Assembly (NCBI GenBank): GCA_944320285.1
Contig: CALUGX010000017.1
Coordinates: 1-33,767, forward strand
Length of the DNA stretch: 33,767 nt
Direction: 5' to 3'
Source of the DNA: an uncultured Prevotella sp.
GTDB lineage: Bacteria; Bacteroidota; Bacteroidia; Bacteroidales; Bacteroidaceae
Shown here: positions 8,773-12,112 of the stretch, one piece after another
How the letters are laid out: each line of letters begins with the position of its first letter
Numbering within the stretch: the stretch's first letter is position 1
Program-made: the position numbers and the translations under genes
The notes under the pieces: model-generated
Database searches by the model: none
What the model was told of the DNA's origin: nothing
Seen by the model: the letters and a program-made list of their open reading frames with translations, nothing else

Positions 8773-8817
8773 GCTCGTCTGCTTGTCTCTTGTTCGCTCG
8801 TCTGCTAAAAAACAGAC
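8773..8817. repeat. Short tandem repeat of GCTCGTCTGCT, 23-nt period
   Basis: GCTCGTCTGCT occurs at 8773-8783 and again at 8796-8806. A GTCTG/CAGAC hairpin (8800-8804 with 8813-8817) overlaps the end of the DUF262-HNH gene. The motif matches the one at 3799-3809, so it is probably a dispersed intergenic repeat. Confidence 0.45.
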
Positions 8818-9929
8818 TTTCTTCTATTGCATTCGCGGCAGAGCATCTGGCAGTTCTCTTTAACGGTGCGTCCGCCTTCTTTCCATGGAGTTATGTGGTC
8901 GCCCTCCATAAACTCATAGTCAAATTCCTTGCCACAGATAGCGCACTTGTGGCCTTGCTCCTCCCACACGGCTAACTTTATGTCGTCGGGGAAGGCGCGC
9001 AGGTCGAGCCAATGCTCGTCACCGGTCAGTACGTAGGGTATGATGCCGGTCTGACGTTGTATTTCGCTGTCGCGCATCAAGGCCGATATGCGGCGGCCAA
9101 GCGCCGCGGTGTCGAGCGTCTCGCTGCCGAACTTGTCGTAAAGCATTGCCCAGTCGAGGCCCTTCATTATTTTCTTGAACTTCCTTGGGTCGAAGTTCGT
9201 GATTGCCCAGTTTAGCACGTTCTGGAAGTAAGTCCACAGGTTGTTGGCGTTCGGGTCGTGCTGGTGCTCTGCCATATAGCCTACGGCTGTCTGCCGTTTA
9301 CCGCCTCGCGTCTCGTGGTCGGCAATCCATTCCAATGCCTTTTTCAGGTAATCCTGGCGTATAGCCGTACCGTTAACCAAGTCGCGCCCCAAGCGGTAAG
9401 CCCCGCAGTTAGACTTCGAGAAATGCCGCTTTGCGTCCGAGACGAACGGCCCTGCATACACGGCGTTGTTTATTTCCTGCTCGTTGAGCGGCTTACCGGC
9501 AATGTTGATAGTCTTGAACCACTCCAACTTTTCCGACGGCTCGCCCTCGCATACGTACACGGTGAGCTTGTAGTCAAGTATTTTCTTCTGTATGTCGCCC
9601 GGTTGGTTAAAGAAGTTCTTGAAGTCATACGAGAACGCCCCGGCCACATATTCGCACAGCGAGAGCGTGCGTTGCTGGCCGTCCATCACCTCGTATGGGC
9701 ACTCGGCGTCGTCGCCACGCTTCACCCAGTACATCACGTTCAGCGGATAGCCGTTCAGCACAGTGGTTATTACGGCCTGTTGCTCCTTCTCGTTGTAGAT
9801 GAACTCGCGCTGATATGGCGGCCTTATGTCAAGCCTTCCGCCGTAACCGCGCACTCCATTCTCGTCGTTATTCACGTATCCGTTGGCTATTTCGCCAACG
9901 GTCACTTCTATTTGCTTAATTGTCATCAT
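8805..9929 (-). CDS. DUF262-HNH nuclease-like protein (restriction or defence)
   Basis: This 374-residue protein has an N-terminal DUF262 (ParB/Srx-like) domain in about 5-150, with PPYQREFIYN at 38-47 and the hallmark DGQQR at 83-87. A C-terminal HNH endonuclease motif covers 329-371: CAIC at 329-332, DH at 344-345, an Asn near 359, a second CxxC at 364/367, then NRRKS. DUF262 proteins such as GmrSD and SspE use the DGQQR site to bind or hydrolyse nucleotides and sense DNA modification before cutting. Here the nuclease part is a simple HNH rather than the DUF1524 of GmrSD. It starts 26 nt after the methyltransferase and is probably co-transcribed with it, suggesting a restriction or defence pair. 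The target sequence is unknown. ATG codons at 9929 and 9926 are adjacent and equally possible. Confidence 0.85.
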   Translation of the reverse strand: MMTIKQIEVTVGEIANGYVNNDENGVRGYGGRLDIRPPYQREFIYNEKEQQAVITTVLNGYPLNVMYWVKRGDDAECPYEVMDGQQRTLSLCEYVAGAFSYDFKNFFNQPGDIQKKILDYKLTVYVCEGEPSEKLEWFKTINIAGKPLNEQEINNAVYAGPFVSDAKRHFSKSNCGAYRLGRDLVNGTAIRQDYLKKALEWIADHETRGGKRQTAVGYMAEHQHDPNANNLWTYFQNVLNWAITNFDPRKFKKIMKGLDWAMLYDKFGSETLDTAALGRRISALMRDSEIQRQTGIIPYVLTGDEHWLDLRAFPDDIKLAVWEEQGHKCAICGKEFDYEFMEGDHITPWKEGGRTVKENCQMLCRECNRRKSVF

Positions 9930-9955: not shown

Positions 9956-11032
9956 TTATAGGGTTTTGGGGTGCTTGTTGCGGATAAAAACTCTACTATA
10001 TTGCCGTTTTCCATTTACGATACCACACCCTCCCCTATCGTCAGGATGAATGGTGTAACCAATTCTATTCAATACTTCCTTGGGAGTTGATGCTCGCGTG
10101 TTTCCACTCGCTTGCCATACTATTTCAAATTGATTGGGACAATATTTATCAAGGAATGTTATTGGAACTCCCATCAACCCTGAATAATCACAAGGTATGT
10201 CTTGAGTTCTGTTTACATTTATTGCATCATAATTTTCATACTTTGGATATTCTTCAGGAGAATAATGACAGACCAAATCTAATTCTTCATTTCGTTTCGG
10301 TATCTCTAAATTCGTAAACCAATGAACGCCAGAGACCCTAATCATACCTTCACGATGGTCACTTGCTGTTGCTACATCTTCATACGGAGAAAAGAAATGT
10401 GCTGCAGCTCCCTTAAAACCATATCCAAACCATACTTTATTGTTTATTATCAAAGGAAAAATATCTTTATATATGGCATTCCCTTGTTTTCCTATTATCA
10501 GAAACTTTTTATCATACTTCACAAGCTGCCCTATATACTCACGGAACAAGGAGAACGGAGGATTGGTGACAACAATATCTGCCTGTTTTAGCAATTCGAT
10601 GCACTCACGAGAGCGGAAATCTCCTGTTTCAAGCGTGGAAATCACGTTCTTGTCATTCTTCAACAAATATTGCACATCCGAAAGGTCTACTGCCCCGTCG
10701 CCGTTCAAATCTTTCACCTCGGTAATTTCCACTTTATAGGCAATTCGTTTGGGTTCTTCATCATCCCATTTGAACAGCAACGGCAGTTCATTGCCTTGTA
10801 CGGGTGAGCCGTTATAGCAGGTACAGATGAGCTTTCGCAGCTCAAGCTGGTTGAAACGCAAGGCAAAATACTTGAAAAAGTTGCTTTCGTAAGGGTCATC
10901 ACAGTTGCAAAGTACCGTCTTACCACGAAAATGCGACCAGTAATGTTGCAGCTCGCGCTCAATATCGGACATCTGCGTATAAAACTCGTCCTTCTTGGCG
11001 CGCTTTGCCAAATTAAGGTTTTTGTTTGCCAT
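9956..11032 (-). CDS. EcoRI-family adenine-N6 DNA methyltransferase
   Basis: This 358-residue protein resembles the EcoRI methylase family, which methylates adenine in DNA using S-adenosylmethionine. Visible motifs: KKDEFYTQ at 13-20, an SAM-motif-like CDDPYESNFFKYF at 44-56, and the catalytic NPPFSLFREYIGQL starting at 157. At 108-119 an insert (DLNGDGAVDLSD) matches the 12-residue EF-hand/dockerin calcium loop at every ligand position. This is unexpected in such an enzyme. The 3' half of the gene (about 10000-10660) is clearly more AT-rich than the 5' part. It heads the operon with the DUF262-HNH gene, and a strong promoter, a structured leader and a start-proximal hairpin precede it. It may protect host DNA from its neighbour. 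The recognition sequence cannot be predicted. Confidence 0.87.
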   Translation of the reverse strand: MANKNLNLAKRAKKDEFYTQMSDIERELQHYWSHFRGKTVLCNCDDPYESNFFKYFALRFNQLELRKLICTCYNGSPVQGNELPLLFKWDDEEPKRIAYKVEITEVKDLNGDGAVDLSDVQYLLKNDKNVISTLETGDFRSRECIELLKQADIVVTNPPFSLFREYIGQLVKYDKKFLIIGKQGNAIYKDIFPLIINNKVWFGYGFKGAAAHFFSPYEDVATASDHREGMIRVSGVHWFTNLEIPKRNEELDLVCHYSPEEYPKYENYDAINVNRTQDIPCDYSGLMGVPITFLDKYCPNQFEIVWQASGNTRASTPKEVLNRIGYTIHPDDRGGCGIVNGKRQYSRVFIRNKHPKTL

Positions 11033-11037
11033 AGTAA

Positions 11038-11063
11038 TGATAGTTTACAAGCATAAACTATCA
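11038..11063 (-). promoter_or_regulatory. 10-bp hairpin 5 nt upstream of the methyltransferase start
   Basis: Positions 11038-11047 and 11054-11063 are perfect 10-bp reverse complements with a 6-nt loop. In the minus-strand transcript the hairpin ends 5 nt before the ATG, where it could limit ribosome access or serve as a protein-binding site. No regulator gene is visible nearby. Confidence 0.5.
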
Positions 11064-11079
11064 ATCACTTACGCGCAAT

Positions 11080-11370
11080 AAAAAAGGTGTGAGCTTTCTT
11101 ATTGCGTTCTGCGAGGTAGCGTAGGAATGAAACCCCTTATCACCATAATAAGCACTCACACCCTATCGGTGGAGCATCGCCCATTATTGGTGATAAAGGA
11201 ACATCCTCTACGTGATTTCCTTATCTATTATCCGGCAGTTCTTATATCACTTAAAGTTTCCTACGCTTTTAGCAGAACGCGAAATAATAGCTAATGCTTC
11301 TTTATTTCTAATATGTCGTTATAAATCTTTCTTTCTATTTTTTGCTTTTATTTTTTATGTTTCGTTACTA
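11080..11370 (-). promoter_or_regulatory. Highly structured leader or small RNA with terminator-like end
   Basis: Read on the minus strand, the outer arms 11280-11272 with 11112-11104 (9 bp) and 11267-11258 with 11127-11118 (10 bp) enclose an inner pairing, 11199-11184 with 11151-11135, giving one long folded structure. An alternative stem uses 11162-11155 with 11093-11086 (GGTGTGAG/CTCACACC) plus 11152-11147 with 11103-11098. It is followed directly by six U residues (11085-11080), a typical intrinsic terminator. The two folds share 11147-11152, so they exclude each other. This is attenuator logic, or an independent RNA ending before the methyltransferase. No known riboswitch or retron fits, and there is no reverse transcriptase nearby. 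Confidence 0.55.
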
Positions 11371-11374
11371 TCTG

Positions 11375-11405
11375 CAAAGGTAAAGAATATTTCCTGAACG
11401 ACAAA
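11375..11405 (-). promoter_or_regulatory. Bacteroidetes-type promoter for the leader and methyltransferase operon
   Basis: On the minus strand, TTTG (11405-11402), a 19-nt spacer and TACCTTTG (11382-11375) match the consensus exactly. Transcription should start near 11368. It then enters the structured leader and, after about 335 nt, the methyltransferase gene. Confidence 0.85.
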
Positions 11406-11429: not shown

Positions 11430-11590
11430 TATGAATGTCTGCAATTAGCAAACATCCACCGTAGGGACATAATTCATTATGTCCGCACGCCACGGAGGGG
11501 CGTATGTTAACAAGCTATGCTGCGTAATACGTTTCTGCGAAACGTGCGGACATAATGAATTATGTCCCTACAGTTGGCGGTTTGCAGTTT
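11430..11590. repeat. MITE-like palindromic element with 29-bp perfect arms
   Basis: Positions 11461-11489 and 11543-11571 are exact 29-bp reverse complements. Each arm is itself nearly palindromic (GGACATAATTCATTATGTCC). Outside the arms, GCAAAC near 11448 and GGTTTGC near 11579 extend the symmetry imperfectly. The left flank TATGAATGTCTGCAAT (11430-11445) matches the end of the element at 21061-21205 with one change. No ORF lies within. It is probably a non-autonomous mobile or REP-type repeat. Confidence 0.65.
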
Positions 11591-11871: not shown

Positions 11872-11902
11872 TTTGCGTTTATTGGAATTTTGCATACCTT
11901 TG
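11872..11902 (+). promoter_or_regulatory. Promoter of the B12 riboswitch operon
   Basis: TTTG at 11872-11875, a 19-nt spacer and TACCTTTG at 11895-11902 match the Bacteroidetes consensus exactly. The expected start near 11909 is the beginning of the riboswitch. Confidence 0.88.
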
Positions 11903-11909
11903 CACACGC

Positions 11910-12112
11910 TGATTGGTTCACGCATGAGTGATTAAAAGGGAAACGAGTGAAAATCCCGTACAGTCCCGCTGCTGTGAGCTGTCATTATCGCGACGGACAA
12001 CACGCCACTGGCACAGTTTTTTAGCCGGGAAGGCAGTCCGACGAGGACAGCGTAGTCAGAAGACCTGCCGTCAGTTATGTCTAATTCACCGCTTCGAGGA
12101 AGGTGGTGCATT
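11910..12112 (+). promoter_or_regulatory. Cobalamin (adenosylcobalamin-type) riboswitch
   Basis: Conserved cobalamin-aptamer landmarks occur in order: AAAAGGGAAACGAGTGAAAA near 11934, the AGTCCCGCTGCTGTGA core near 11960, GCCGGGAAGGCA near 12024, and the B12 box AGTCAGAAGACCTGCC at 12054-12069. A short stem pairs CACC near 12089 with GGTG near 12102, just before the btuB start at 12115, so B12 binding probably blocks translation. It sits between a consensus promoter and four B12 uptake genes, which supports the call. Confidence 0.95.

Follow-up and report, generated by a model that had tools for sequence, protein, structure and literature searches.

Transcription-terminating riboswitches, such as the SAM-I and cobalamin classes, consist of a conserved core with kissing or pseudoknot contacts, followed by pairings that exclude one another and by a U-run a short distance 5′ of the gene. 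Other leaders with related tasks include the processive antitermination leaders of UpxY/LoaP-type NusG paralogs, which decide read-through of accessory operons, and among defense systems, type III toxin-antitoxin loci carry tandem repeats of a pseudoknot unit 5′ of the ToxN nuclease. To our knowledge, little has been learned about how bacteria switch accessory defense and surface genes on and off, particularly in gut Bacteroidota. For restriction-modification (R-M) systems, antisense RNAs transcribed from reverse promoters control EcoRI and Eco29kI (PMC3874152, PMC12707154), and these two reviews name antisense RNAs and hairpins, while in their main text the word "riboswitch" occurs 0 times. 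For the phylum as a whole, PMC2864571 gives Bacteroidales-1, Bacteroides-1, Bacteroides-2, and Bacteroid-trp as candidate structured RNAs of Bacteroidota with Rfam accessions. Here, we describe a structured leader RNA found in front of an R-M operon in an uncultured Prevotella sp. and compare it with these systems.

A structured leader in front of a type II restriction-modification operon

The window, by which we mean the whole 33,767-nt stretch of DNA that was analyzed, carries on its minus strand two adjacent genes that PADLOC identifies as the methyltransferase and restriction enzyme of a type II R-M operon (Table 1). The motif DGQQR, which we take to be that of GmrSD_N, is found in a downstream forward frame at 71 of the 72 EcoRI-type methyltransferase loci long enough to judge, and the nearest named relative of the window locus (L002, from an uncultured Prevotella assembly) encodes a methyltransferase identical to that of the window. 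The exact consensus promoter that a first-pass annotation of this DNA had proposed is present, and from its position transcription would be expected to start near 11368, ~70 nt 5′ of the conserved core. The resulting leader of ~335 nt is unusual, since the 5′ UTR is 23 nt for most mRNAs of Bacteroides thetaiotaomicron, according to PMC7366714. Upstream of the promoter, an inverted repeat (GTAGGGACATAATTCATTATGTCC and its complement, at ~11461-11484 and 11548-11571, ~63 nt apart) was noticed by eye and has the look of a small mobile element or repeat. Elsewhere in the window, a cobalamin riboswitch (11897-12086, plus strand, 98.2 bits) lies 5′ of a TonB-dependent receptor gene.

The 340-nt leader is predicted to fold with -103.3 kcal/mol versus -66.4 ± 5.0 for shuffled sequences (z = -7.34, with none of 100 shuffles as good), and this, together with the covariation of the main helices in homologs reported below, rules out chance structure. 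The nested long-range fold with long arms described at first pass is recovered, with P1, a P2 of ~10 bp in the predicted fold, and a long arm that sits between the P1 and P2 strands, as is the further hairpin close to the ATG. For the terminator-like hairpin, the pairing and the U6 run are both there, but the structure is not a local hairpin, as its two strands are separated by 44 nt that hold the 3′ strands of P4, P2, and P1. In the window and 27 homologous loci, none of the 4,227 families of Rfam 15 matched the RNA at the gathering cut-off, the only matches being two tRNAs and the cobalamin riboswitch noted above, and permissive scans of the window leader and of L182, L036, and L343 returned only weak matches far below gathering scores; a known Rfam family is therefore ruled out for the scanned sequences. 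No description of this RNA was found among the literature matches listed, and it may have been predicted earlier, for example among the thousands of candidates of PMC8040213.

Table 1. Features of the R-M operon and its leader in the window
Feature	Position	Strand	Details
Leader region of the type II M-R operon	11033-11405	minus	
Promoter, Bacteroidota type	11375-11405	minus	TTTG 11402-11405, N19, TACCTTTG (TAnnTTTG) 11375-11382
Conserved structured leader RNA, long form	11082-11297	minus	Model R1, 149.2 bits, E 8.1e-32
Conserved 5′ end, GCAUU	11293-11297	minus	Can pair with GAUGC 11174-11178 (last pair U-G), beside S5
P0	11283-11287	minus	UUAUU with AAUAA of the tail segment; alternative to S3 pairing
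P1	11272-11280 with 11104-11112	minus	GCGTTCTGC with GCAGAACGC, 9 bp
P2	11259-11266 with 11119-11126	minus	5′ strand in hairpin A loop, 3′ strand in P4 loop
S5	11167-11177	minus	Arm strand pairing with S3 (antiterminator side)
S3 + CUUAU	11148-11165	minus	Shared strand; partner is S5 or the 3′ tail
P4 pseudoknot/kissing hairpin	11133-11136 with 11113-11116	minus	GGGG with CCUC
AAUAAG + 3′ tail	11086-11103	minus	GCUCACACC; pairs with S3 (terminator side)
U6 run	11080-11085	minus	47 nt before the ATG at 11032
Start-codon hairpin	11038-11063	minus	26 nt; ends 5 nt 5′ of the ATG
Gene 1, EcoRI-type adenine DNA methyltransferase	9956-11032	minus	PF13651, E 1.7e-145; PADLOC MTase_II, E 7.4e-116
Gene 2, GmrSD_N (DUF262) + HNH protein	8805-9929	minus	PADLOC REase_II, E 1.2e-119

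Distribution of the RNA in the Bacteroidia

On sequence evidence, the leader belongs to a large RNA family across the Bacteroidia. A DNA search gave matches in 49 of 301 genomes of the window's taxonomic family, its own genome among them, and 64 of 111 loci were matched in a profile search, many of them by full-length copies directly 5′ of methyltransferases or other genes. R1, a covariance model of the long form built from 44 copies, found the RNA in 92 of 399 genomes of the family, with at most 4 copies per genome, and in 21 of 393 genomes of the order, the window's genome being included in both counts; phylum-wide, R1 matched 1 of 395 genomes, which was the window's own. The match of R1 to the window itself holds by construction, because the same sequence (L002) is among the 44 rows of the model. 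A short form of ~165 nt lies 5′ of other EcoRI-type methyltransferases, and its covariance model, R2, found the RNA in 153 of 301 genomes of the family (at most 7 per genome, window's genome included) and in 9 of 198 genomes across the phylum, of which 8 besides the window's own represent other families of the same class. By eye, the matches outside the family have the same layout. The window's genome contains two further R2 matches, G000:C126:80166-80330 (72.2 bits) and G000:C114:3279-3441 (39.7 bits), the former preceding a methyltransferase-like ORF (L301; MmeI_Mtase, E 1.3e-4, below the Pfam cut-off).

The set of 170 unique copies used for most counts below comprises forward-strand matches with E up to 0.01, including weak or truncated ones (L034, L237, L239) and excluding opposite-strand shadow matches and second loci of one place. 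Two pairs of partial copies, L084/L239 and L103/L237, retain roughly the first 77 nt and no more; the remainder is different, and these are perhaps decayed or carry another 3′ half. R1 has no match at a Rikenellaceae locus, L058, where the 300 nt 5′ of the methyltransferase keep P1, P2, and the tail/arm complementarity by eye. Against an element borne by phages or plasmids stand the lack of any match to one long-form copy in phage and plasmid collections and the outcome of exact-pattern searches of viral contigs, where four exact DNA patterns found nothing and a fifth found 6 contigs, in none of which R2 finds the RNA, although divergent copies could have escaped these searches.

Conservation and covariation of the fold

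It is clear from the alignments that the main stems covary strongly in both the long and the short form, which bears out the fold and the structured RNA that had been suspected at first pass. Over the 44 aligned long-form copies and the pseudoknotted fold, 87.7% of cells are paired versus 39-45% in slid alignments, and 39 of 60 pairs have changed on both sides; for the 25 short-form copies, the corresponding values are 89.6% versus 33-50% and 23 of 46 pairs. The 59 lower-scoring R1 matches, which include a few short-form and truncated copies, are 87.6% paired versus 39-45%, with 51 of 55 pairs doubly changed, a result that leans toward the model because the alignment was fitted to R1.

Among the individual elements in the 44 long-form copies, P0 and P1 together are paired in 98.7% of cells (double changes in 6 of 14 pairs), P2 in 98.9% (7 of 8), and P4, which crosses P2, in 99.4% (2 of 4). 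The inner stem of hairpin A, around the 5′ strand of P2, is 95.3% paired with all three pairs doubly changed (AAG/CUU to GAG/CUC), the outer stem is 70.6% paired with no double changes, and the counterpart of hairpin A in the short form is 84% paired versus 8-58% slid. Because this covarying hairpin surrounds its 5′ strand, the most fitting interpretation of P2 is a kissing helix formed by two hairpin loops. Hairpin A and P2b share bases and so exclude each other, and the supported helices thus cannot all coexist. In the long-form alignment, pairing in the outer arm helices 5-7 reaches only 60-75%. Pairing of the conserved 5′ end, GCAUU, is seen in 91.7% of long-form cells versus 22-41% slid, without covariation, and in 97.1% versus 26-60% of the short form, with 8 cells changed on both sides; a pattern test of this pairing over 237 copies gave a weak signal (longest run 5.9 versus 5.4).

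A strand with two partners

The S5:S3 pairing, formed by helices 8 and 9, is present in ~90% of long-form cells, with all 4 pairs of helix 9 doubly changed but none of the 5 in the lower stem, helix 8. The tail is like a second copy of S5, since S3 is complementary to both. Pairing of the tail with S3 is found in 85.7% of long-form cells versus 28-57% slid, and its covariation in this form is weak, as 71 of 500 shuffles reach the score and 26 of 500 reach the count of doubly changed pairs. In the short form, 96.0% of cells are paired versus 32-54%, the covariation score is reached by 0 of 500 shuffles, and one position displays a three-way change of S5, S3, and tail, with T/A/T in 20 of 25 copies and C/G/C in 5 of 25. 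The first-pass annotation had named a lack of covariation in both alternative stems as an outcome that would speak against it; instead, the main stems covary strongly and the alternative stem is conserved, its covariation being clearer in the short form and weak in the long.

For the following estimates over 170 copies, the partner of the tail was whichever stretch of the RNA's middle part matched it best, and in a few copies (e.g., L006, L191) this is not S3. On this basis, the fit of tails to their own middle part scored 24.6, compared with 14.9 for shuffled tails and 18.6 for swapped dissimilar tails, and the own tail beat the median of swapped tails in 158 of the 170. The tail duplex has -21.3 kcal/mol on average, and at least 5 U in the 8 nt after the tail occur in 163 of 170 copies, so that a stable helix would stand directly 5′ of the U-run, as in an intrinsic terminator. 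The conserved complementarity also points to two exclusive pairings, S3 with S5 or with the tail, of the kind that makes up a riboswitch expression platform. A local nested hairpin able to win was found in no copy, as the nested terminator is less stable than the free-tail fold in 170 of 170 (by 13.7 kcal/mol on average and 20.5 in the window), and a simple nested terminator/antiterminator is thereby ruled out on energy. Given that the nested state never wins, we infer that a pseudoknotted strand exchange beside the U-run is the likelier form of this competition, and termination would need either a pseudoknotted helix or folding kinetics. With the cost of the pseudoknot excluded throughout, tail pairing minus the S5:S3 hairpin amounts to -3.9 ± 4.1 kcal/mol (-0.5 in the window), the exchange favors the tail in 142 copies and does not in 28, and the balance lies within 5 kcal/mol in 99 of 170.

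A possible mechanism and its alternatives

As in riboswitches, a conserved structured domain occupies the 5′ leader of the downstream gene, and we consider it moderately probable that the RNA represents a new family of riboswitch-like terminator/antiterminator leaders that act in cis on defense and surface genes. The RNA folds into a core that P1 closes and in which the loops of two hairpins pair (P2 through P4), and its arm carries S5:S3. While S5:S3 and P0 are held, the tail would stay free and RNA polymerase would continue into the gene. Capture of S3 by the tail, for the most part as a pseudoknot that leaves the core intact, would instead create a terminator-like helix beside the U-run, and transcription would stop ~50 nt before the gene. 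The core may sense a cellular signal, whether a small molecule, a protein, or an RNA, that tips the nearly balanced exchange, and the start-codon hairpin would probably add translational control. In the window operon, the leader would set the level of the methyltransferase and restriction enzyme.

The near-zero balance in 99 of the 170 copies would also suit an attenuator without a ligand, in which a fixed ratio or folding kinetics lets one part of the transcripts stop and the other run to full length. Genes whose over-expression is costly would then be expressed at a low level or at one that differs from cell to cell. The largely accessory kind of the downstream genes is consistent with this. 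However, such a device would have no need for a conserved sequence and a kissing/pseudoknot core over 160-220 nt, and we judge it rather unlikely.

A riboswitch-like leader would also have to be weighed against control at the start codon. Among the 144 copies whose ORF starts at a distance of 35-75 nt, 118 have a stem of at least 7 bp between the U-run and the start codon, and this holds for 81 of the 89 that precede methyltransferases and for 37 of the 55 that precede other genes. The mean stem score is 21.5 versus 12.9 for mononucleotide shuffles, and in the short-form methyltransferase loci viewed by eye the hairpin overlaps the ATG. These data would fit control of translation or mRNA stability, with the start-codon hairpin as the effector and the U-run helix as a processing or pausing element. 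On the other hand, several surface-gene copies without the hairpin, among the copies viewed by eye, keep the tail and U-run, and the U-run is present in 163 of 170 copies, leaving this alternative with a small probability.

The surroundings of the RNA bear on whether it acts in cis at all. A following ORF, defined by an ATG and 100 aa or an open end, or else 60 aa, was assigned in 165 of 170 copies by a rule that misjudges the frame in a few (L025, L171, L227) and in some picks an ORF lying far off; the median distance is 53 nt, and 119 of the 165 lie 40-75 nt away. Upstream, TAnnTTTG occurs within 140 nt in 141 of 168 copies versus 7% of shuffled upstream sequences. Soon after this promoter box, a second conserved hairpin, GGGGAGAAA, with a GAGAAA loop, is found in 69 of 168 long-form copies (e.g., L120, L148, L178); the window copy has an AU-rich stretch in its place. 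With regard to a leader-peptide attenuator, counts of ATG ORFs of at least 8 codons within the leader showed no excess (148 of 170 copies versus 91% in shuffles). With its own promoter, terminator-like end, and stable fold, the RNA resembles an independent trans-acting small RNA that ends at the U-run, the gene being expressed by leaky read-through. The short and similar distance to a same-strand ORF argues for action in cis, as does the fact that unrelated downstream families each have their own copy, and a trans-acting RNA appears improbable to us.

Genes downstream of the RNA

EcoRI-type methyltransferases follow the RNA in 95 of 165 copies, 43 of which came through the protein search; among copies from RNA or DNA searches, the figure is 52 of 121. 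Pfam was run on 40 downstream proteins, three of them behind the short form, and on 10 more behind the short form, and PADLOC on 10 proteins; several of the proteins scanned with Pfam had no match. Other genes of defense type encode N6/N4 methyltransferases, a C5 methyltransferase, an MmeI-type IIG enzyme, HsdM- and Eco57I-type enzymes, HSDR_N proteins, SNF2/PLD helicases, and a DUF4268 protein (PADLOC PDC-S11), and an RNase T-type exonuclease, DprA, and a putative AbiC protein are also found. The surface and other genes encode acyltransferases, MBOAT and sulfatase-family proteins, BspA-type LRR, BACON, and Big_2 proteins, a C10 peptidase, a transglutaminase, radical SAM proteins, and lipoprotein-like products. 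No common metabolic pathway was seen among the downstream genes, while defense and surface/secretion recur. Proteins with an LLRDHTTG motif, recognized by eye, repeatedly lie behind the short RNA (L303, L305, L312, L331, L240; L303 and L240 have no Pfam match) and are a candidate for an unknown defense gene.

This range of genes qualifies what had been thought of the locus at first pass. An attenuator controlling the methyltransferase operon is supported in its structure and position, but the RNA is not specific to R-M, and the rationale offered, that R-M systems need tight control, agrees with the R-M pair in the window, although the same RNA precedes other defense genes as well as surface and secreted ones, so R-M control can be only part of the story. 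The position directly 5′ of defense genes might suggest an RNA that is itself part of a defense system, either guide-like or akin to a type III antitoxin. This is very unlikely, as the same RNA lies 5′ of lipoprotein, LRR, and acyltransferase genes and matches no Rfam family, and as the window leader contains no ToxI-like repeat array, but only one 13-nt repeat of 1.9 copies (11331-11356) outside the conserved core. With a methyltransferase as the next gene, ToxI itself was rejected. Autoregulation, with the methyltransferase binding its own leader, would account for the RNA at 58 of 80 EcoRI-type methyltransferase loci and is just as implausible, since the same RNA lies 5′ of many genes that encode no methyltransferase.

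These 80 loci are the best 80 of 173 relatives found by protein search, and the set leans toward relatives of the window gene for this reason. The 58 with the RNA comprise 36 long and 22 short forms, the latter assigned by sequence motif and alignment, with 10 of them also weak R1 matches. Of the other 22 loci, 9 have a Cro/C1-type HTH ORF upstream (5 on the same strand and 4 divergent), one has only 71 nt upstream, and L058 is by eye a further diverged RNA. The same-strand HTH ORFs, of ~66-76 aa, stand directly 5′ of the methyltransferase (L061, L062, L063, L070, L071). Among the HTH calls, those at L062 and L068 were made from their near-identity to L061 and L067, and L061 and L062 have no in-frame ATG start; an upstream ORF at L073, below the Pfam cut-off, is not counted among the 9. 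The pattern fits an RNA doing the job of a regulator where a Cro/C1-type gene otherwise sits, and it is a comparison rather than a proven replacement because several of the HTH loci are in other taxa. The apparent swap of a regulator gene for an RNA at the same methyltransferase offers a natural experiment on R-M control.

More broadly, and as a tentative idea that we think possible but doubtful, one RNA sensor class across the Bacteroidia might tie dozens of unrelated phage-defense and surface genes to a single intracellular signal, such as a metabolite of infection or stress, with a kissing-loop aptamer and a terminator based on pseudoknotted strand exchange as the link. If true, this would amount to an RNA-based defense-and-surface regulon whose switch stays constant while the cargo gene behind it can be exchanged. 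The common leader RNA provides a handle on such genes, with a single mechanism to examine and a single signal to search for, and its copies could lead to unknown defense genes downstream of them.

Comparison with known systems

Bacteroidales-1, Bacteroides-1, Bacteroides-2, and Bacteroid-trp share with the leader family the phylum and a conserved RNA structure, and none of them matched the window or the 27 loci, assuming that they are included in the 4,227 Rfam models. The antisense RNAs of EcoRI and Eco29kI are alike in placing R-M control at the level of RNA, whereas the leader is a structured RNA on the sense strand. UpxY/LoaP antitermination leaders resemble the leader family in gating read-through of accessory operons. 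Controller (C) proteins of R-M systems have their likeness in the Cro/C1-type HTH ORFs upstream of the same methyltransferase at the 9 RNA-less loci; judged from sequence, these ORFs could have a controller role and meet the same need for controlled methyltransferase and restriction enzyme levels, but a C protein acts as a protein with a DNA operator, while the leader is an RNA. Unlike riboswitches, the leader family has no known ligand, its downstream genes are mostly of defense and surface type with no pathway seen, and its terminator helix, as it reaches across the core, would be a pseudoknot. For want of a ligand, and with a terminator other than a nested hairpin, we say that the leader works like a transcriptional riboswitch rather than that it is one, and the analogy lies in the plan common to both, in which a core with kissing/pseudoknot contacts is followed by exclusive pairings and a U-run.
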